Assembly: GCF_027594545.1 (NCBI RefSeq)
Contig: NZ_CP115160.1
Location: forward strand, 1,869,001-1,933,000
Reading direction: 5' to 3'
DNA: 64,000 bases
From: Algoriphagus sp. TR-M9
Lineage (GTDB): Bacteria > Bacteroidota > Bacteroidia > Cytophagales > Cyclobacteriaceae
The position numbers were made by a program, and so were the translations under genes. Below the pieces are notes generated by a model. It did not search any database. It worked only from the letters and a program-made list of their open reading frames with translations, and was not told the origin of the DNA. Shown one piece after another: positions 3,978-13,397 of this stretch (within the stretch, counting starts at the first letter, position 1; every line of letters begins with the position of its first letter).

Positions 3978-4370
3978 ATGGAAAAACCAGATAAGTCAAA
4001 CCATAGCCAATGCACCGGGATAATCCGTCCGGTTCAGGATGCATTGGATGTATTAAGTGGAAAGTGGAAGCTTCCAATCATCGTAGCTTTGCTTCACGGC
4101 TACAAGCGGTTTTCTGAAATTTCCAGACAGGTTCCCGGCATTACCGACCGCATGCTTTCAAAGGAATTACGGGATTTGGAATTAAATCAACTGGTGAAGC
4201 GGAAAGTCTATGATACCTTTCCTGTGACGGTGGAATATACCATGACTCCCTATGGGGAGACGCTTAAGGATGTAATCTCTGCGCTTCATATCTGGGGAGA
4301 AAAACACCGTCAAAAAATCTTTGGCGCAGGTCTAGTTCATCATCCAGTAGATAAAAGTCACCTTGGGTAG
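3978..4370 (+). CDS. HxlR-family winged-helix transcriptional regulator
   Basis: A 130-residue regulator of the HxlR family (MarR-like winged helix). The signature is seen in QDALDVLSGKWKLPIIVALL, then FSEISRQVPGITDRMLSKEL (recognition helix) and VEYTMTPYGETL (wing). Cys12 is in the position where many HxlR proteins (such as the YodB and HypR type) carry a redox-sensing cysteine, so it may sense quinones, aldehydes or disulfide stress. It diverges from doxX across two palindromes, its likely binding sites. The inducer is not known from sequence. Confidence 0.9.
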   Translation: MEKPDKSNHSQCTGIIRPVQDALDVLSGKWKLPIIVALLHGYKRFSEISRQVPGITDRMLSKELRDLELNQLVKRKVYDTFPVTVEYTMTPYGETLKDVISALHIWGEKHRQKIFGAGLVHHPVDKSHLG

Positions 4371-4432
4371 CCTCTATATTTTCATTTTTATGTTATCTAT
4401 TCCTTCAATTAGACAATTTGAAAAATTATTCG

Positions 4433-4450
4433 GTTCTCTATTTGCAGAAC
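4433..4450. promoter_or_regulatory. Candidate GbsR operator, site 1
   Basis: GTTCT-N8-AGAAC, an 18-bp dyad with 5-bp arms, covers the TTTG at 4441-4444. The same dyad with the same spacing recurs at 4988-5005 within the operon, so both are likely sites for the MarR-type protein encoded between them. Confidence 0.6.
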
Positions 4451-4473
4451 TAACTGAACTTTCTCTATATTTG
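4441..4473 (+). promoter_or_regulatory. Promoter of the gbsR-type/efflux operon
   Basis: TTTG (4441-4444), 21 bases, TATATTTG (4466-4473): full match to the Bacteroidota sigma consensus. The leader to the ATG at 4509 is about 30 bases. Confidence 0.8.
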
Positions 4474-4508
4474 TCCCGTTGTACCTGCATGACCCAAATT
4501 AATTGTAG

Positions 4509-4970
4509 ATGATTTTAACAGAAAAACATAAGGAGCTGATCGAGCGAATCGGAGTCTTCCATGAGCATAAAGGAATGCAGCCTTTGGTGGGAAGGATTAT
4601 CGGACTGCTTTTGGTACATGATGAAGGAGAGGTTTCATTTGATGAAATCGTAGAGCAGCTTGGGGTAAGTAAAAGCGCCGTGAGTAATGCTTTAACCTTC
4701 TTACAGGCAAAAGGTAGATGTGTGTATTCTACCCGACCCGGAGATCGAAAAAGGTACTTTGCGCTTAAGGTGAGTGACTGGAGAAGCGATTTCGAAAAAG
4801 AGCTGGAGAATATCGCCGAAATTCAAAAATTCATCGATGAGGTTTTGGAGGTGAGAACAGATAAAACCCCTGAGTTCAACTGTAAAATGAAGGATTTTTC
4901 GGAGTTTCTGGCATTCTTCAAAAAAGAAATCCCCGTTCTTTTCGAAAGATTTAAAAGACAAAGAGCTTAA
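4509..4970 (+). CDS. GbsR/MarR-type transcriptional regulator of the efflux operon
   Basis: A 153-residue protein with a winged helix at residues ~25-85. VSFDEIVEQLGVSKSAVSNAL forms the helix-turn-helix and TRPGDRKRYFAL the wing. A coiled C-terminal half probably dimerises. The short form and the N-terminal LIERIGVFHEHKGMQPLVGR fit GbsR-like MarR relatives that often head TolC-RND operons in Bacteroidota. It precedes tolC by 72 bases, and two identical dyads flank it. It most likely represses the pump genes and itself; the ligand is unknown. Confidence 0.85.
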   Translation: MILTEKHKELIERIGVFHEHKGMQPLVGRIIGLLLVHDEGEVSFDEIVEQLGVSKSAVSNALTFLQAKGRCVYSTRPGDRKRYFALKVSDWRSDFEKELENIAEIQKFIDEVLEVRTDKTPEFNCKMKDFSEFLAFFKKEIPVLFERFKRQRA

Positions 4971-4987
4971 AAAAATTTGAATTTTAA

Positions 4988-5005
4988 GTTCTTTAAACAC
5001 AGAAC
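4988..5005. promoter_or_regulatory. Candidate GbsR operator, site 2
   Basis: Second copy of GTTCT-N8-AGAAC, in the 72-base gap before tolC. Only the arms are conserved between the two copies; the spacers differ, as expected for a protein-binding dyad. AT-rich sequence follows, but no clear -7 box. Confidence 0.6.
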
Positions 5006-5042
5006 CAACTATTATTTTCAAAAATAACTACTACAAAATAGA

Positions 5043-6410
5043 ATGTTACGAAAGTTTCTAATTTACTCTACATTCCTTCTAGGTCCTGTCACGCTGTCTG
5101 CACAGGATCAATCGGAGCAGTTTGCATTACCGGACACTTTGACGCTGAAGGAAAGCATACAGATCGGTTTGAAAAATAACCGGGATTTCAAAAAAGCGGT
5201 CTTGGATGAAGAATCCGCCATGTATCAGCGAAATGAGATCCGTGGAGCTGGCCTGCCACAATTATCCGCCTATGGTCAATACAATAATTTCATCGATGTG
5301 TTTCCTCAGGCTGTGCCAGGGGGGATTTTCGGTGGAGACCCTGGGGATATAGAGGTGATCTCTTTGGGTGTGCCCCAGTCACTTAAGGCGGGTTTGGAAC
5401 TGAATCAGCTGATTTTCAGTAATTCTTACCTCATAGGCCTGAAAGCAGCCAAGACAGGAGAGGAGTTTTACCGCTTGCTGGCGCAGCAGTCCGAAGAGGA
5501 TGTGATTCATGAGATTTCCATGAACTACCTGGCCACCATTCAGGCTGAACTTCAAAAGGAAAACCTTCTGGCAAATATAGATCAGCTGCAAAGTTTGGAG
5601 AAAATCCTGCAGGCGCAGTATGAAAATGACCTGGCCAGAAAAGTGGATTTAAATCGGGTGAAGGTCAACCTGACTTCCATCAAAAGTGAGTTGGAAAACC
5701 TGGAGATCTCTATCTATCAGCGGGAAGGTTACCTGAAATTGGTCATGGGAATTCCGGTGGATACTCCGATCAATCTGGATAGATCCATCGCTGATATGAA
5801 TCAAAAAGTACAGGATTTTAAGATCCAGGACTTTAATATTTTTGACCGAAAGGATATTCAGATTTTGGGAGTTCAGGAGCAGCTGTACGAGTATGAATAC
5901 AAAAATATCAAAGCGGAGCATCAGCCTTCCTTGGTTGGATTTGCAGATTTTAATAAAAATGCTTTTTCCCAGGACTTTGATTTCATCAGCCAAAATAAGG
6001 TATGGTATCAGGGGTTTTTGATAGGCTTAAAGCTTCAGATTCCGATTTTTGATGGATTCACTACCAAAAACAAAGCGGCACAGTCTAAGGTGAGAGCCTC
6101 CCAACTTCAGCTGGATAGATTGCAAGCTGAAGACGCTGCATCCCTGGAATATCAGAATGCGATAAACAAATATTACTCTTCGCTGAGCACCTTGGAATCT
6201 CTTCAGGACAACCTAGCCCTGGCAGAAGATGTGCTGGACGAAACCACCTTGCTATATAAGGAAGGACTCAGCCCGCTTACTGATCTGCTGGATGCAGAGA
6301 CTACCCAGCGGCAAGCACAAACCAACTATAATAATCAAATCATTCAGGTGAGAATAGCGCAGTTGGAAATTCTTAATTCCACCGGGAAAATCAAAAACCT
6401 TATCCAATAA
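5043..6410 (+). CDS. TolC-family outer membrane efflux protein
   Basis: A 455-residue outer-membrane channel subunit. A signal peptide ends near LSAQDQ (residue ~20). Two outer-membrane-efflux repeats follow: LTLKESIQIGLKNNRDFKKA starts the first, and the second has QSKVRASQLQLDRLQAEDAA and LYKEGLSPLTDLLDAETT, the typical helical hairpin with YxxGxxxxxDLLDA. Length is normal. It should trimerise and connect with the adaptor encoded 19 bases downstream and the RND permease after it, exporting drugs, lipids or other hydrophobic compounds. Substrate is not predictable. Confidence 0.95.
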   Translation: MLRKFLIYSTFLLGPVTLSAQDQSEQFALPDTLTLKESIQIGLKNNRDFKKAVLDEESAMYQRNEIRGAGLPQLSAYGQYNNFIDVFPQAVPGGIFGGDPGDIEVISLGVPQSLKAGLELNQLIFSNSYLIGLKAAKTGEEFYRLLAQQSEEDVIHEISMNYLATIQAELQKENLLANIDQLQSLEKILQAQYENDLARKVDLNRVKVNLTSIKSELENLEISIYQREGYLKLVMGIPVDTPINLDRSIADMNQKVQDFKIQDFNIFDRKDIQILGVQEQLYEYEYKNIKAEHQPSLVGFADFNKNAFSQDFDFISQNKVWYQGFLIGLKLQIPIFDGFTTKNKAAQSKVRASQLQLDRLQAEDAASLEYQNAINKYYSSLSTLESLQDNLALAEDVLDETTLLYKEGLSPLTDLLDAETTQRQAQTNYNNQIIQVRIAQLEILNSTGKIKNLIQ

Positions 6411-6429
6411 TCGAAAACTAATACCAGCC

Positions 6430-7482
6430 ATGAAAAAATTAATCATCATAGCCTTACTTCTAGTAGGAGTAGGAGCAGTGGCCTTCACACTCTACACAAA
6501 CAAAGAAGAAATGAACGAAGCTGCCACCCTGGCCATGAAATCCAGCGAGTATATCTCGGTGACTGTCCAAAAGGTGGAAGAGAAGACGGTAAACAGGAAC
6601 TTCGAGGCCAATGGAGTATTTGAACCTTCACAGGAGCTGAAACTGATGTCCGAAACCTCTGGTGCAGTAGTTAAAATCTATAAGAAAAAAGGAAGCTTTG
6701 TGAAAAGGGGCGACTTGATCGTGCAGATCGATGACCGCCTGATCCGCTCCGAGTATACCATTGCCAAGCTGAATAGAGACCAGGCTGAAAAAGACCTGAA
6801 GCGCTTTGAAAATCTGGCAAATACAGATGCCATCACCAAAAAACAATTGGAAGAAAATGAAAAGGCCTTCAAAATCGCTGATGCTCAGTTGGCAGCCTTG
6901 CAAAAAAGGCTGGATGATACTCAGGTGACCGCCCCAATCTCCGGTTTTATCAATGAGGATTATTATGAAATGGGTGCTTTGGTAAGTCCAGGAATGCCAT
7001 TAGCAGACATCATCAATAAATCGCCACTTAAACTTAGCGTGAATGTGACCGAGAGCGAAATCTCTAAGGTGAAAATCGGAGATGAAATCCCGGTTAAAGT
7101 AAACGCGATCTCCAATCAGGAATTTACCGGCAAAGTGCATTTCATTTCTGATATGGCTGATGCTTCATTTAAATACGAAGTGGAGCTGGTAATGAACAGC
7201 AAAAATCAGGATCAGATCAAACCAGGTATGTTTGGTACCGCTCAGTTTAAATTTTCTCAGGATGAAAAAGTGCTGAAAATCGATAGAAAGTCTATCGCAG
7301 GAAGCCTAAAAGATCCGGGTGTTTACCTGATCAAAAATGGGGTAGCAGTCTACCAGCCAGTAAAAATCAACCCTTTGGATGATGGAACGGTGGAGATTTT
7401 GGACGGCTTAAAAGCCGGAGACGAAGTGATCGCCTCAGGTCTGATCAATGTGAAAGAAGGAACCAAAGTCAAAGTACAGTAA
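6430..7482 (+). CDS. RND efflux periplasmic adaptor (membrane fusion protein)
   Basis: A 350-residue HlyD/AcrA-type adaptor. It has an N-terminal membrane anchor (LIIIALLLVGVGAVAFTLY), a lipoyl/barrel-sandwich half (GAVVKIYKKKGSFVKRGDL), a short coiled-coil hairpin (DQAEKDLKRFENLANTDAIT and KKQLEENEKAFKIADAQLAA), the second lipoyl half (VTAPISGFINEDYYEMGALV), a beta-barrel, and a membrane-proximal domain ending KEGTKVKVQ. It bridges TolC and the permease. The permease gene starts 3 bases after its stop, indicating translational coupling. Confidence 0.95.
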   Translation: MKKLIIIALLLVGVGAVAFTLYTNKEEMNEAATLAMKSSEYISVTVQKVEEKTVNRNFEANGVFEPSQELKLMSETSGAVVKIYKKKGSFVKRGDLIVQIDDRLIRSEYTIAKLNRDQAEKDLKRFENLANTDAITKKQLEENEKAFKIADAQLAALQKRLDDTQVTAPISGFINEDYYEMGALVSPGMPLADIINKSPLKLSVNVTESEISKVKIGDEIPVKVNAISNQEFTGKVHFISDMADASFKYEVELVMNSKNQDQIKPGMFGTAQFKFSQDEKVLKIDRKSIAGSLKDPGVYLIKNGVAVYQPVKINPLDDGTVEILDGLKAGDEVIASGLINVKEGTKVKVQ

Positions 7483-7485
7483 ACC

Positions 7486-10400
7486 ATGCAAATCACTAAA
7501 ATATCCATTCAGCGGTCGACCATGGTGGTCGTCCTCTTTACCGTACTGACTTTACTGGGGATTTTCTCCTACACCCAGCTGTCTTATGAGCTTTTGCCAA
7601 AAATGGAAACCAACGTGGTGACCATCTCTACGGTTTATCCTGGAGCAGCACCAACGGAAGTAGAAACCTCAGTGACGAAGAAGATCGAGGATGCAGTGGC
7701 TTCCTTGGAAGGGATAAAATCCATGAATTCCATTTCACAGGAAAGTATCTCCATTATCACCATAGAATTGGAAGCAGGCGAAGACGTAGATTATTCCTTA
7801 CAGGACGCACAGCGTAAAATCAACGCCATCCTAGGCGACTTGCCAGATGATGCAGATCCACCGAGTTTGGGCAAATTTGATTTAGATGATTTGCCTATCA
7901 TGCAGCTGGCAGTGTACTCCAACTTAAATCCATCAGAGTTCTATGATTTGGTAAAAAACAAAATCCAACCATCTCTAGCTCAGATAAAAGGTGTGGCCCA
8001 AGTGAATATGCTAGGTGGTACCGAGCGTGAAATCAAAGTTAACTTGGACCGGAATAAACTGGACGCTTACGGTATTTCACCGATTTCTGTAGCTCAGACT
8101 ATCAATGCCAGTAATCTGGATTTTCCCACGGGTAGGCTAAAAGATAATGAGGGACAGGTGTTGATTCGTCTTGCAGGTAAATTTCAGAATATTCAGGATA
8201 TAGAAAACCTCGTGATTGCTTACCGTAATGACGAATCTCCTATACAATTGAAAGAAGTAGCTGAAGTCCAGGATTCCTTTAAAGACGAGGAAATCCTGAC
8301 CAGATTAAATGGTAAATCGGCGATTGGTTTAACAGTACAAAAGCAGTCTGATGCCAATGCAGTAGAAGTTTCGGAGGTGTTGGAGCAGGAGCTTCAAATC
8401 CTGGAGCAGACCTATACCGCTGAGGGCGTTTCTTTCCAGATCTCCCAAAATACATCTGAGTTTACATTGGAAGCAGCCAATCATGTGATCACGGATTTGG
8501 TTATTGCGGTAGTATTGGTGGCGCTGATCATGCTGCTGTTCCTACACAGTATACGAAATGCGATCATCGTAATGGTAGCTGTGCCGGCTTCCATAGTAGC
8601 AACATTTACAGTGATGTTCCTGGCAGGTTTTACCCTGAACCTGATGTCCTTACTGGCACTTTCGCTGGTGGTAGGTATCCTGGTGGATGATGCCATCGTG
8701 GTGATAGAAAATATTTACAGGCACCTGGAAATGGGGAAAAATATCGCACAGGCTTCCTATGACGGTATCCGCGAAATCGGAGCTACGGTGGTTTCCATTA
8801 CCTTGGTTATTGTAGTGGTGTTCGTGCCTCTTGCGATGACGGGTGGTTTGATTTCGGGTATTTTGACCCAGTTCAGTATTACAGTAGCTGCTGCTACCCT
8901 GATTTCCCTGTTAGTCGCATTTACTTTGATTCCTCTTTTGACCTCTAGATTCTCCAAACTGGAGCATTTGGATAAGGATTCATTCTTTGGCAAAATTGTC
9001 TATGGGTTTGAAGCAGGTTTGGATGCATTTGTGGATTGGTTGATCGGGATTTTGAGATGGGGTTTTGCACACAAAATCGCTTTATTAGGAATCACCCTTG
9101 TCCTTTTCATTTCCTCTTTCTTTTTGGTGATCAAAGGATTTATAGGTTCCGAATTCGTTTCTGAAGGAGATAGAGGGGAATTCCTACTTAGACTGGAGCT
9201 CCCTAAGGATGCCACATTGGAGCAAACCAATTTCAAGACTCGCGAGGTAGAAGATTACCTGAGAACGCTTCCTGAGGTCACAGAGGTGTTTACCACAGTA
9301 GGTGTGACTTCTGGCCAGTTTACGGGTTCCCAATCTTCTTCATTTACATCTGAGATTTTGGTGAAGCTAGTTGGGCCAGAGCATAGAAGCATGACCGGGC
9401 CTGATTATGCCAGACAACTTGAAAACTATCTGGAAGAAAATATCACAGGAGCAGAATACACCGGAGTGCCTATATCTATCATGGGTACTGCGAATGATGC
9501 ACCGATTCAGGTAATCGTATCTGGTCCGGATAAGGATTCTATTCGTATAGTTTCTGAAAAAATTGAAGGGATTCTAGCCGGATTAAAAGGTACAAGAAAG
9601 ATAGAAAGCTCGCTGGAAGATGGTAACCCAGAAATCCGTGTGGAAGTAGATCGCTATAAAATGAATGAGCTGGGGCTTTCCATGGACATGGTGGGCGGAG
9701 CACTTCAAGTAGCATTTAACGGGAACGACGATTCGAAATATACTGATGGTGATTACGAATACGATATTCTGGTAAAACTGAATGAGTTTGACAGGAAGTC
9801 AATCTCTGATGTTCAGAACCTTACATTCCTGAATAGAAGCGGTCAATTGGTGAAACTCGAGCAGTTTGCGACAGTTAATCAGTCGGAAGGCCCTACCAAG
9901 CTGGAAAGAAGGGACCGTGTTTCTTCTGTGAAAATCACTTCTCAGGTAGCCGGTGTTCCTTCTGGAACAGTAGGGGCAGAATTGACTGCTGCGATAGAGG
10001 CGATGGACCTTCCCCAGCAAGTGCAGATCAACTATGATGGAGATATGAAAAACCAGGCAGAAGGTTTTGGTTCCTTAGGAATTGCGCTTTTGGCATCTAT
10101 CATTTTGATCTACCTGATCATGGTTGCCCTGTATGATTCCTATGTCTATCCATTGGTGGTGATGTTCTCACTTCCTATGGCATTGATCGGTTCCTTATTG
10201 GCTTTGGCACTCACCAAAGGCACGCTCAGTATCTTTTCCATCATGGGGTTGATTATGCTCATGGGACTTGTGGCAAAGAATGCGATTCTATTGGTCGATT
10301 TCACCAATCAGCTTAAAGCTGAAGGAGTGGAAGTCAAGACCGCCTTGGAAAAGGCAGTTAAGATTCGTTTCCGTCCGATTTTGATGACTACCATCGCGAT

Positions 10401-10644
10401 GGTGATAGGTATGATGCCTATTGCATTGGCTACTGGAGCAGGTGCCGAATGGAAAAATAGCTTGGCTTGGGTAATTATTGGGGGCCTACTTTCGTCTATG
10501 TTTTTGACGCTGGTAGTGGTTCCGGTGATTTACTACTTATTCGATCGGTTTATGTTCAAAATCGGGAAGTCTGAAAAGAAACAGATTGAGCTAGAAGAGA
10601 CTGACGTAGAGGAGTTTGAATCTGAAGCTGCTGCTTACGTTTAA
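7486..10644 (+). CDS. RND-family efflux permease
   Basis: A 1052-residue proton-driven inner-membrane pump subunit of the AcrB/MexB-MdtB type. The N-terminal TM1 is STMVVVLFTVLTLLGIFSYT, followed by porter subdomains. TM4 carries the proton-relay aspartates in VVGILVDDAIVVIENIYRHL. The second half repeats the fold (TM10 GLVAKNAILLVDFTNQL) and ends in an acidic tail. The usual family length is 1010-1060. The HAE-1 or lipid/other subclass cannot be fixed by eye; the double Asp in TM4 fits HAE-type pumps. It is the third efflux gene, and a hairpin plus a small ACP-like gene follow. Confidence 0.95.
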   Translation: MQITKISIQRSTMVVVLFTVLTLLGIFSYTQLSYELLPKMETNVVTISTVYPGAAPTEVETSVTKKIEDAVASLEGIKSMNSISQESISIITIELEAGEDVDYSLQDAQRKINAILGDLPDDADPPSLGKFDLDDLPIMQLAVYSNLNPSEFYDLVKNKIQPSLAQIKGVAQVNMLGGTEREIKVNLDRNKLDAYGISPISVAQTINASNLDFPTGRLKDNEGQVLIRLAGKFQNIQDIENLVIAYRNDESPIQLKEVAEVQDSFKDEEILTRLNGKSAIGLTVQKQSDANAVEVSEVLEQELQILEQTYTAEGVSFQISQNTSEFTLEAANHVITDLVIAVVLVALIMLLFLHSIRNAIIVMVAVPASIVATFTVMFLAGFTLNLMSLLALSLVVGILVDDAIVVIENIYRHLEMGKNIAQASYDGIREIGATVVSITLVIVVVFVPLAMTGGLISGILTQFSITVAAATLISLLVAFTLIPLLTSRFSKLEHLDKDSFFGKIVYGFEAGLDAFVDWLIGILRWGFAHKIALLGITLVLFISSFFLVIKGFIGSEFVSEGDRGEFLLRLELPKDATLEQTNFKTREVEDYLRTLPEVTEVFTTVGVTSGQFTGSQSSSFTSEILVKLVGPEHRSMTGPDYARQLENYLEENITGAEYTGVPISIMGTANDAPIQVIVSGPDKDSIRIVSEKIEGILAGLKGTRKIESSLEDGNPEIRVEVDRYKMNELGLSMDMVGGALQVAFNGNDDSKYTDGDYEYDILVKLNEFDRKSISDVQNLTFLNRSGQLVKLEQFATVNQSEGPTKLERRDRVSSVKITSQVAGVPSGTVGAELTAAIEAMDLPQQVQINYDGDMKNQAEGFGSLGIALLASIILIYLIMVALYDSYVYPLVVMFSLPMALIGSLLALALTKGTLSIFSIMGLIMLMGLVAKNAILLVDFTNQLKAEGVEVKTALEKAVKIRFRPILMTTIAMVIGMMPIALATGAGAEWKNSLAWVIIGGLLSSMFLTLVVVPVIYYLFDRFMFKIGKSEKKQIELEETDVEEFESEAAAYV

Positions 10645-10663
10645 CCTATAAATAAACAATAAC

Positions 10664-10691
10664 CCGCTTACCGGACTTATACGGTAAGCGG
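10664..10691 (+). other. Hairpin between RND permease and ACP-like gene
   Basis: A 10-bp perfect stem (10664-10673 with 10682-10691) and an 8-base loop lie 19 bases after the permease stop and 16 before the next ATG. No U-tract follows (ATAAAATAAATAC), so it looks more like a partial attenuator or an mRNA-stability element than a full terminator. Confidence 0.6.
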
Positions 10692-10707
10692 ATAAAATAA
10701 ATACCCA

Positions 10708-10938
10708 ATGAATAATATTGCTAACCTCCGTAAGATTTCCAAGGTGTTCACCCAATATGGAATAGACCTGACTGGAAAAGGAAAATATGCATCATTTGAA
10801 GGCGATCTGCAGATGGACAAGGTGTTCGTTTCAGGCTTGATATTCGAGTTGGAATATGAGCTTCACAAAGAGCTGGAAGATGATAAAGTAGCTGGAGTAC
10901 AAGCCCCGGCACAGATTATTGAATTGTTGATGAGTTAA
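10708..10938 (+). CDS. Small acyl-carrier-protein-like protein lacking the phosphopantetheine serine
   Basis: A 76-residue acidic protein. Residues ~30-75 (FEGDLQMDKVFVSGLIFELE, then YELHKELEDDKVAGVQAPAQ) line up with the second half of acyl carrier proteins (FDEDLGADSLDTVELVMALE). The helix-II DSL motif that carries the 4'-phosphopantetheine is replaced by DKV. If the alignment is right, it keeps the ACP fold but cannot be charged. It follows the RND permease as probable last gene of the operon and ends at a strong terminator. The known interaction of E. coli ACP with MukB or AcrB preparations makes a structural partner role conceivable, but that is speculation. Confidence 0.65.
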   Translation: MNNIANLRKISKVFTQYGIDLTGKGKYASFEGDLQMDKVFVSGLIFELEYELHKELEDDKVAGVQAPAQIIELLMS

Positions 10939-10973
10939 GTTCTGTATGGGCAAGGTTGCTCATACCTAAACTA

Positions 10974-11004
10974 AAAAGAGTCCCGGGTGTCCGGGACTCT
11001 TTTT
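10974..11004. terminator. Bidirectional terminator of efflux operon and S9 peptidase
   Basis: A 13-bp perfect GC-rich stem (10974-10986 with 10991-11003), 4-base loop, A-run before and eight Ts after. It separates converging genes. Confidence 0.92.
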
Positions 11005-11024
11005 TTTATGCATTACACCAATTT

Positions 11025-13397
11025 TTACTCTTGCAGCAAGGTGTTATTGAACAGCTTCAAAATCCGTTTATACTCATCTGTCCAGGAACTTGGCTCTACG
11101 AATCCGTGATCTTCCACAGGATAAATCGCCATTTCCCAATTATCTTTTCCCAGCTCGATAAACCGCTGGGATAGCCTCACTACGTCCTGAAAATGAACAT
11201 TTACATCTACCATGCCATGCGCCATTAGTAAGTTTCCTTTAAGTCCTTCGGCAAAGTAAATAGGAGAGGAACGTCGGTAAGCAATAGGGTCCTCTTCGGG
11301 TGTGTTCAGGATATTGGAGGTGTAGCCGTGATTGTAATGCGCCCAATCTGTCACTGAGCGGAGTGCTGCTCCGGACTTGAATGTGTCAGAAGCATTGAAA
11401 AGTGCCATAAGTGTGATAAAACCACCATAGCTGCCTCCATACAAGCCTACGCGGTCTGGATCTACCCCGTGATTTTCGATGAGATATTTCACTCCATCCA
11501 CTTGGTCAGAAAGGTCTTTGCCACCCATATGGCGGTAGATGCCTGTTCTCCAATCTCTCCCATATCCCGCAGAACCACGGTAATCTATGTCCAAAACAGT
11601 ATAACCTAAATCTGTCAATAAATTATGAAACATGTACTCTCTAAAGTAACTGCTCCACCATTTATGGACATTTTGTAAATATCCGGCACCATGGACAAAG
11701 ACTACTGCAGCACCGTTCTTTTTGGCTGGGTCGGGCGTGTACAGTCTAGCAGGCACCTGAGCGCCATCCTCAGCAGTAAATCTTACAATTTGCGGATCCC
11801 TCCAGTTGTAAGCTTTAAATTCATCGCTTTGACCAGCTGTGAGCTGAACAGCCTTTGCACCAGCTTTATTGTCCTGTAGGTAAAGCTCTGCAGGCTTGTT
11901 ACTATAAGAATATACAATGGCGAGCTTTTTCTCATCTGGAGAAAGACTTACATCGTTGTTTCCAGTCATGGAAGTCAGCTTGACCGCCTTACCGCCCATC
12001 AAGGGCATTTGATAAAAATGACGCTCGCCTGGATCTACTTCTGAGCTGGTGAAATACCAGGATTTTTTGTCTTTGGAGAGGAAAGGATCAAAGACTTCAT
12101 ATTTTCCTGAGGTCAAAGCTTTCTTTTCCCCAGTGCTCACATCCAGCAAATACAGGTGGGAATAACCACTTTCTTCAGATTGAAAATAAATGTGCTTGTT
12201 GTCCGGTAGCCATCCCATGGTTCCCCCAGAAAATGACCAGCCTATGCCCGGACCGGCGATCCATGCCTCATCACGCTGGCGATCAAGGGTTTTAAGTTTA
12301 CCTGAATTCAGGTCAATTTCTGCTATCCACCTGTCTTTATTATCTGTAGATCGAATATTGATAATTGCTCTGCTGCCATCTGGAGAAAAATATGGACTGG
12401 AAAAACTGACTGTTCTTTCTTTTTCCTCCCAGGTTTTGTCTGGGTAATCGGATACATAATCGGGTAGGTCTTTGATACCAGGAAGTTCCGAAGCGGTCAG
12501 GAAATAGACCGTATCCTGCTCTAAATCGTAGATTCCGATTTCCGCTTGGGCAGGAGTAGAGGTTCCCACTTTTGCCCGGGCATTAAGATCCACGGTGTAG
12601 CCTGATGCATCTACATAGTCGGGCACTTTGGTGTTTTTACTGTTGGAGGAATTATAGATGGTAAAACTGGCAAATTTGCCATCCGGAGAAAGCTGTAGGT
12701 TTACCGGGGACTTTCCTTCTGTGTAATACACAAACTCCTCTACCTCCCCGTCTTGAAAGGATTCCCGGTAGTCTTTTCTCATTTTACTTTTTTCCTCTCT
12801 TTCACGGACTACAGCGAGCAGTTCTAGGTTTTCCGACTCCAGCCAAGGTAAGTCCGTAGCATTTCCCTTTGAATTATCCTTTGGTTTGGAACTTGTGGAA
12901 ATATTGGTGGCTTTGCGTATGGTTTTACTGGATAGGTTATAGATGTAGATATTTGCCTTTGAGCTAAAGGCGATTTCTTCTTCATTGGCAAGAAACTTGG
13001 GGTCTGCAAAATTCTCTGGCCACTCCAGCAGTACCTCAGTGTTGCCGGAAGATAGGTCTTCTAACATTAGTTTTTCATCGATCTGATATAAACGAAGGGT
13101 TTTATCCGCATTATAGCTCGCCTCGTCACGTTCTCTGGACCGTAGTTCCAGCCAGGATACTTTTGAGATTTTTTGGTCCCGATTCAGCTGGATTTTGTAT
13201 AAGGAATCAGCCGGATCCTGATCCAGATTGTACCGAAAATAAATAGTTTCAGAATCATCACTCCATGATGCACTGGAAGGGAAAGTACCCATCCAGCTGG
13301 GATCTCTCATGATGTATTCTACACTCAATTCGGACTGTGCCTTGGCCTGAAACAGGGCAATAAAAAGCAAAGGCAGAAACATTAGTTTTCGCTGCAT
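11025..13397 (-). CDS. S9-family serine peptidase (DPP-IV/prolyl oligopeptidase type)
   Basis: A 790-residue secreted peptidase with a signal peptide ending near FQAKAQS (~residue 20). An N-terminal beta-propeller spans ~40-520, with repeated phrases such as SPDGKFASFTIYN, FSPDGSRAIINIRS and SPDEKKLAIVYSY. A C-terminal alpha/beta hydrolase domain (PF00326) follows. The catalytic triad is visible: Ser656 in GLYGGSYGGF, Asp731 in AHGMVDVNVH, His764 in PVEDHGFVEP. It probably trims peptides, often after proline, in the periplasm or at the cell surface. Length and domain order match DPP-IV-like S9B/C enzymes of Bacteroidota. The Hpt gene lies 31 bases upstream on the same strand. Confidence 0.93.
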   Translation of the reverse strand: MQRKLMFLPLLFIALFQAKAQSELSVEYIMRDPSWMGTFPSSASWSDDSETIYFRYNLDQDPADSLYKIQLNRDQKISKVSWLELRSRERDEASYNADKTLRLYQIDEKLMLEDLSSGNTEVLLEWPENFADPKFLANEEEIAFSSKANIYIYNLSSKTIRKATNISTSSKPKDNSKGNATDLPWLESENLELLAVVREREEKSKMRKDYRESFQDGEVEEFVYYTEGKSPVNLQLSPDGKFASFTIYNSSNSKNTKVPDYVDASGYTVDLNARAKVGTSTPAQAEIGIYDLEQDTVYFLTASELPGIKDLPDYVSDYPDKTWEEKERTVSFSSPYFSPDGSRAIINIRSTDNKDRWIAEIDLNSGKLKTLDRQRDEAWIAGPGIGWSFSGGTMGWLPDNKHIYFQSEESGYSHLYLLDVSTGEKKALTSGKYEVFDPFLSKDKKSWYFTSSEVDPGERHFYQMPLMGGKAVKLTSMTGNNDVSLSPDEKKLAIVYSYSNKPAELYLQDNKAGAKAVQLTAGQSDEFKAYNWRDPQIVRFTAEDGAQVPARLYTPDPAKKNGAAVVFVHGAGYLQNVHKWWSSYFREYMFHNLLTDLGYTVLDIDYRGSAGYGRDWRTGIYRHMGGKDLSDQVDGVKYLIENHGVDPDRVGLYGGSYGGFITLMALFNASDTFKSGAALRSVTDWAHYNHGYTSNILNTPEEDPIAYRRSSPIYFAEGLKGNLLMAHGMVDVNVHFQDVVRLSQRFIELGKDNWEMAIYPVEDHGFVEPSSWTDEYKRILKLFNNTLLQE

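Follow-up and report, generated by a model that had tools for sequence, protein, structure and literature searches.

The last gene of an RND efflux run in the window, i.e. the whole stretch of 64,000 nucleotides analyzed here (G000:C1:1869001-1933000), belongs to a family of small proteins resembling acyl carrier proteins (ACPs) that lacks the phosphopantetheine serine in every gene examined and that is linked to five dissimilar clades of RND pumps. In our reading, the family no longer carries cargo and serves RND pumps of the Cyclobacteriaceae as a dedicated accessory subunit or regulator on the cytoplasmic side, an interpretation to which we give an even chance of being right.

The open reading frame on which the initial annotation had focused is intact, spanning positions 10708..10938 of the forward strand with 76 codons plus stop; where an ACP would have the phosphopantetheine serine, it encodes lysine (K38). 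It closes a run of genes on the same strand that begins with a MarR-type regulator (4509..4970) and continues with a TolC-type outer membrane efflux protein (OEP; 5043..6410), a periplasmic adaptor (HlyD_D23/HlyD_3; 6430..7482) and an RND permease of 1052 residues, here named RND-I (7486..10644), in an order that is repeated in relatives. The permease matches the Pfam family ACR_tran with an E-value of 2e-259 and, more weakly, the related family MMPL (E 5e-17), and its stop codon is separated from the start of the ACP-like gene by 63 bases. A hairpin in this gap and a terminator behind the gene had both been proposed, and RNAfold shows both: one hairpin in the gap (10664..10691, forward strand; -19.8 kcal/mol) and, 3' of the gene, a GC-rich, terminator-like hairpin with a T run (10973..11008, forward strand). 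A pattern scan called the gap hairpin terminator-like on the minus strand only, and the downstream hairpin was absent from its output, perhaps because the stem extends into the T run. Gap hairpins recur in relatives, where RNAfold predicts several to be weak or absent; since, in addition, their sequence is not conserved, the gap hairpin was kept out of the core finding. An Rfam scan of positions 4300-11100 returned nothing at gathering score.

The second half of the protein had been aligned with ACPs by eye, and this alignment, including the reading of the DSL attachment site as DKV, was reproduced by phmmer and hhalign, which place FEGDLQMDKVFVSGLIFELE against the DSL segment of ACPs so that K38 falls on the serine. 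For the window protein taken singly, the likeness to ACPs is, at the level of sequence, beyond chance, though weak. Its top NCBIfam match was an ACP model (E 7e-4, under the curated cut-off), and all 8 matches to PDB sequences up to an E-value of 10 were ACPs (E 0.003 to 1.2); Pfam returned no match for it, and the curated family cut-offs (Pfam PF00550, NCBIfam) were not reached. At the level of the family, hhalign aligned the proteins with 14 ordinary ACPs at 96.5% (E 9e-10), with ADS over MDK, and among 44 profile matches in the PDB, of which 5 were proteins other than ACPs, the top 7 were ACPs or NDUFAB1 (best E 0.0025). The best NCBIfam ACP model matched 60 of 112 family members at an E-value of 0.01, the same threshold at which Pfam found no carrier family in any of 112 relatives. 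Of 29 homologs, three short ones (P0028-P0030) were omitted. A first AF2 model from 27 close rows was poor (pLDDT 59.6) and was set aside. The structure check that had been suggested was run, and the confidently predicted structure (pLDDT 93.3) has a helical ACP fold and finds ACPs as its best structural matches; together with the hhalign result, this predicted fold supports the ACP origin that the initial annotation had taken as established.

The loss of serine noticed in the window protein extends to its relatives, with no serine at the phosphopantetheine site in any of the 112 aligned rows or of the 138 distinct family genes; two very divergent members (u2 and u91) carry a serine one position before the site, at D37. 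Neither outcome named beforehand as speaking against the initial annotation, a model lacking the ACP fold or orthologs with a normal DSL serine, was observed. Outside the bacterial family, the ordinary ACPs matched by the profile keep the serine in all 20 cases fetched from 26 genomes with weak matches. One of these 20, an odd ACP encoded on the minus strand at L137:441-677 and matched by the family profile, has the serine in an unusual GMDSL. The 138 genes were distilled from 203 matches in the loci that were fetched and are not a random sample. The scan of genome contigs used two patterns, one with and one without MD[KR], and kept 80 of 88 loci; because one pattern demanded MD[KR], these loci lean to K or R at the site. 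The profile searches made no such demand, and one of them did return ordinary DSL ACPs.

With the 112-row profile, matches at an E-value of 1e-7 or below were obtained in 58 of 245 Cyclobacteriaceae genomes, representing 22 of 84 genera, and a draw across the phylum (E-value of 1e-5 or below) gave matches in 5 of 395 genomes, all of them Cyclobacteriaceae. Family members were thus seen, in both draws, only in the bacterial family of the window, and no confirmed relative was found in viral contigs. The gene is under purifying selection: 22 pump-linked genes form 231 pairs, and the 92 that were usable have a median dN/dS of 0.105. In most pairs that include the window gene, synonymous sites are at or close to saturation.

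Seen from the small gene, linkage to RND pumps is frequent. The C-terminus of an RND gene on the same strand lies within 520 bp upstream of 60 of the 138 genes (36 RND-I, 23 RND-II and 1 RND-III), one of the 138 having just 461 bp of upstream DNA. The chance of an RND end lying that near a random oriented position, given 8 pump genes per genome, is about 0.0004 (0.04%), a figure that serves only as a rough yardstick because the genes are related. Among the RND frames beside these 60 genes, 49 are open over at least 900 residues, 6 stay open until a short locus ends, and 5 are partial or broken (beside u44, u59, u78, u107 and u126). Eight further genes follow an RND gene with intervening genes, either an OEP (u83, u85, u86, u92, u109) or an OEP and a patatin-like gene (u40, u93, u104). 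Of the five RND-IV runs, one had its OEP identified by Pfam, and BLAST matched the OEPs of the other four to that one; for the clade V runs, Pfam identified OEP and patatin in L079, L238 has an identical patatin, and in L223 the place of the patatin is split between two frames. At 35% identity, clades I, II and III stay apart; the pump of u83 (clade IV) shows 49% identity to another pump of its own genome and no more than 31% to any further pump compared, and the pump of u40 (clade V) shows at most 27% to all pumps compared. The small gene is, therefore, linked to five dissimilar RND clades. The gap is 5 bp or less in 13 of 57 measured cases, and 12 of these lie behind RND-II (3-5 bp).

Counted by hand, 16 of the 22 genera contain at least one gene in an RND run, with the permease adjoining in 12 and an OEP, or an OEP and a patatin, in between in 4; for a seventeenth genus (G064), a match to one of the linked genes covers the small gene plus 100 bp. 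Of three copies in Marivirga, two are close to each other and follow different pumps (RND-II and RND-III), and the third is more distant and follows no pump. Well supported branches of the gene tree force at least 6 changes for RND-I, 5 for RND-II and 3 for RND-IV; this tree has 81 columns and 138 rows, with many unresolved forks, long branches that meet and unsettled bootstrap values. Its labels also count as RND-linked u17, u19 and u106, whose RND end is 0.55-2.1 kb off and which stand outside the 60 and 8 genes above. Elsewhere in the genome of the window, an RND permease (G000:C1:2969529-2972615) lies in an open frame of 1457 codons, with room for a fused further part.

Seen from the pump, linkage depends on the relative considered. 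In one draw of 245 genomes, all 22 RND-I orthologs at 68-100% identity have the small gene downstream, none of the next 8 RND-I relatives (57-61%) has a gene of the window family, and none of 29 RND-I relatives at 50-55% in the phylum draw, two of them with less than 600 bp of downstream DNA, is followed by an ACP-like gene; only RND-I matches with a fetched locus entered these counts. For RND-II in the genus, the small gene is present in 17 of 28 evaluable loci and absent from 11. The 22 linked RND-I permeases share a similar acidic C-terminal tail. This tail was rejected as a general explanation for docking because the unlinked permease of L268 has a similar one and RND-II permeases have none.

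The proposal that the protein is a partner of the pump is accordingly strengthened in part and weakened in part: five RND clades are linked and the gaps behind RND-II are of 3-5 bp, but many copies lie outside RND runs, the gene persists without a pump run, and other pump relatives lack it. It is a role that we still infer.

The copies outside RND runs, defined as lying outside both the 520 bp set and the eight RND-OEP runs, number 70 of 138, and their upstream neighbors include CLC channels, patatins, sugar-isomerase-like genes, a histidine kinase and others. The second copy in the genome of the window (G000:C1:1966908-1967132) is one of them, following a sugar-isomerase-like gene and having no adjoining pump. 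In L053, L055, L060, L063 and L070, the ACP-like gene is followed by a gene for a metallo-beta-lactamase-fold protein and one for a MaoC-like dehydratase (identified by Pfam in L053). A Kef-type exchanger gene is the upstream neighbor in 8 loci (L083, L086, L087, L088, L091, L097, L106, L114), and in 9 loci where RND-II adjoins the small gene (L089, L093, L096 and others), the same Kef gene lies on the other side of the RND-II run, some 6.2-6.7 kb upstream. Since the Kef gene flanks the RND-II run elsewhere, the run must be missing from the 8 loci, either by loss or because it never arrived there, and the small gene was kept. The exchanger, considered as a second partner, was dropped because its gene only flanks the far side of the RND-II run. 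Remnants of RND-II precede unlinked RND-II-type copies in 2 of 20 loci (L109 and L104), where the small gene is intact and the pump decayed; none were found in the other 18 of the 20 loci checked, one of which has 461 bp only. Genomes G050 and G340 have an RND-II-type small gene and no RND-II match. A neighboring pump is, then, not needed at every locus, and partners that are encoded elsewhere, or other partners, must be allowed for the copies without an adjoining pump.

Other partners are the essence of an alternative in which the protein is a general adaptor that binds several membrane- or lipid-facing proteins (RND pumps being the commonest, along with CLC channels and patatins) and reports the state of lipids or of acyl-ACP. 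A CLC channel gene lies 117-154 bp upstream in 11 loci (L052, L058, L061 and other Cyclobacterium-type loci), identified by Pfam in one locus and by similarity in the rest, and patatin-like genes stand directly before the small gene in several. Genes away from pumps are constrained too, with a median dN/dS of 0.04 both for those without a pump run (13 pairs) and for the CLC group (3 pairs). The CLC gaps are, however, wider than the 3-5 bp behind RND-II, the Kef-type neighbor is the far flank of an RND-II run, and several further neighbors are non-membrane proteins; we therefore regard a general adaptor as unlikely, at perhaps one chance in a few. Patatin-like genes lie directly upstream with gaps of 5-91 bp at L079:7124-7990, L216:3672-4568 and L231:3515-4447, one of these cases forming part of an RND - OEP - patatin - ACP-like run.

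A second alternative turns to fatty acid synthesis, for which the dead ACP would act as a decoy or regulator, rivaling AcpP for enzymes or for AcpS and being co-expressed with efflux under membrane stress. The predicted fold is ACP-like, the same genome also encodes an ordinary AcpP with DSL, a MaoC-like dehydratase gene lies one or two genes off in a set of 7 neighbors (one of them Pfam-checked), and the window protein is acidic, with a pI of 4.78. The surface of the family argues otherwise. The acidic helix II residues represented by D38 and E41 of E. coli ACP, which we take to be enzyme-recognition residues, are absent from the family, the first position being F or Y in 138 of 138 genes and the second G in 136; E49 is invariant across the 138. 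The AcpP of the genome has a pI of 4.05, whereas 107 distinct proteins of the family range from 4.4 to 9.7, with a median of 6.2. A decoy is, on this evidence, improbable.

The small gene could also be a bystander, a duplicated ACP that came by chance to the ends of pump runs and whose role is unrelated to them. Half of the copies are located elsewhere, the gene is kept where the pump run is absent or decayed, and most gaps exceed 5 bp, often with a hairpin. Against chance stand the five RND clades to which the gene is linked, the recurrence of such links on several branches of the tree (which has few columns and unsettled bootstrap values) and the linkage of every one of the 22 close RND-I orthologs, which together make a bystander quite improbable. 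A carrier with covalent cargo on another residue, for instance Lys38, is the most doubtful reading by far: lysine does occur there more often than any other residue (60 of 138 genes), but the remaining 78 have P (36), Q (17), R (14), E (4), W (3) or H, N, D or A (1 each), and Lys38 was dropped as a substitute attachment site because of this variation.

For the preferred reading, a non-carrying accessory of RND pumps, the following course of events can be envisaged. A duplicate of an ACP would have lost the serine of the prosthetic group and become a pump accessory, retaining the ACP fold and one docking face while its cargo function disappeared. Encoded at the end of the pump run, the protein would dock on the cytoplasmic face of the permease, most likely via a remodeled helix II with a near-invariant Phe40 and Gly43 where an ordinary ACP has acidic positions. 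Once docked, it might stabilize or gate the pump, or fill a site otherwise used by charged acyl-ACP. Binding to the permease, the docking surface and the effect on transport are, all three, what we infer.

A second type of serine-less ACP was encountered behind the RND-I relatives at 57-61% identity. In 4 of those 8 loci (L266, L267, L269 and L270), the permease is followed by another ACP type in which DSL has become DQL or DQV; three of the genes are intact and one is apparently broken, the frame looking disrupted in L269. This DQL type (Cesiribacter type; P0031-P0041, L270) comprises 11 database entries including the query, with DQ in 12 of 12 aligned sequences, and hhalign relates it to ordinary ACPs at 96.9% and to the window family at 13%. 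Both types are serine-less ACPs directly behind an RND-I permease, but the DQL type passes the Pfam PP-binding model (in all three proteins scanned), whereas the window family does not. Because the DQL type is closer to ordinary ACPs than to the window family, serine-less ACPs may, judging from these profile comparisons, have come to the RND-I pump twice, with the DQL type of separate origin; the MDK and DQL types may also stem from one origin followed by strong divergence, the profile comparison between them giving 13%.

An ordinary ACP on an RND-superfamily transporter has been seen only recently, and with a cargo-less family kept behind several RND clades, what an ACP does as a structural or regulatory partner would become separable from what it does as a carrier. 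A bolder proposal, that AcrB-type RND pumps have carrier-dead ACPs as genuine cytoplasmic subunits, the cofactor site having been lost perhaps twice (in the MDK and DQL types) and the gene copied to five pump clades in the Cyclobacteriaceae, is put forward tentatively, as somewhat likelier to fail than to hold. The family also shows that a protein listed publicly as an acyl carrier protein can be a non-carrier. The titles and abstract openings of the literature searched contain nothing on a serine-less ACP, on ACPs in RND runs of Bacteroidetes or on Algoriphagus together with ACP.

Among known systems, the closest in sequence is AcpP (PF00550; NCBIfam NF002148, TIGR00517). The window family shares with it the length, the predicted arrangement of helices, the hydrophobic pattern, the D ahead of the modified position and the E closing helix II. 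Unlike AcpP, all 138 members lack the phosphopantetheine serine, the acidic positions of helix II are replaced by F/Y and G, and the window protein falls under every curated cut-off seen.

Ordinary ACP is also known to dock on transporters, as in the case of the SLC26 type (YchM/DauA). With S41 of the mycobacterial protein AcpM presumed to be its cofactor serine, AcpM D40 and E52 correspond to D37 and E49 of the window family, and E46 corresponds to G43. Cryo-EM of M. smegmatis MmpL5 places AcpM, a mycolate ACP that was initially a fortuitous co-purifying protein, on the cytoplasmic side of the RND-superfamily transporter MmpL5, in a trimeric 3:3:3 complex with MmpS5 in which AcpM contacts MmpL5 through D40, E46, E52, D53 and D61, among others (PMC11633376, PMC12346298; PDB 9DP6). 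The match of D37 and E49 to AcpM is a lead and not a test, because both residues are conserved in many ACPs. The precedent is also a loose one, because MmpL5 falls outside the AcrB type and the AcpM that co-purified with it is of the ordinary kind. If the window protein does bind, the two systems would be alike in having an ACP-fold protein on the cytoplasmic side of an RND-superfamily permease; they differ in that AcpM is an ordinary ACP, whereas the window protein is a pump-linked serine-less paralog.
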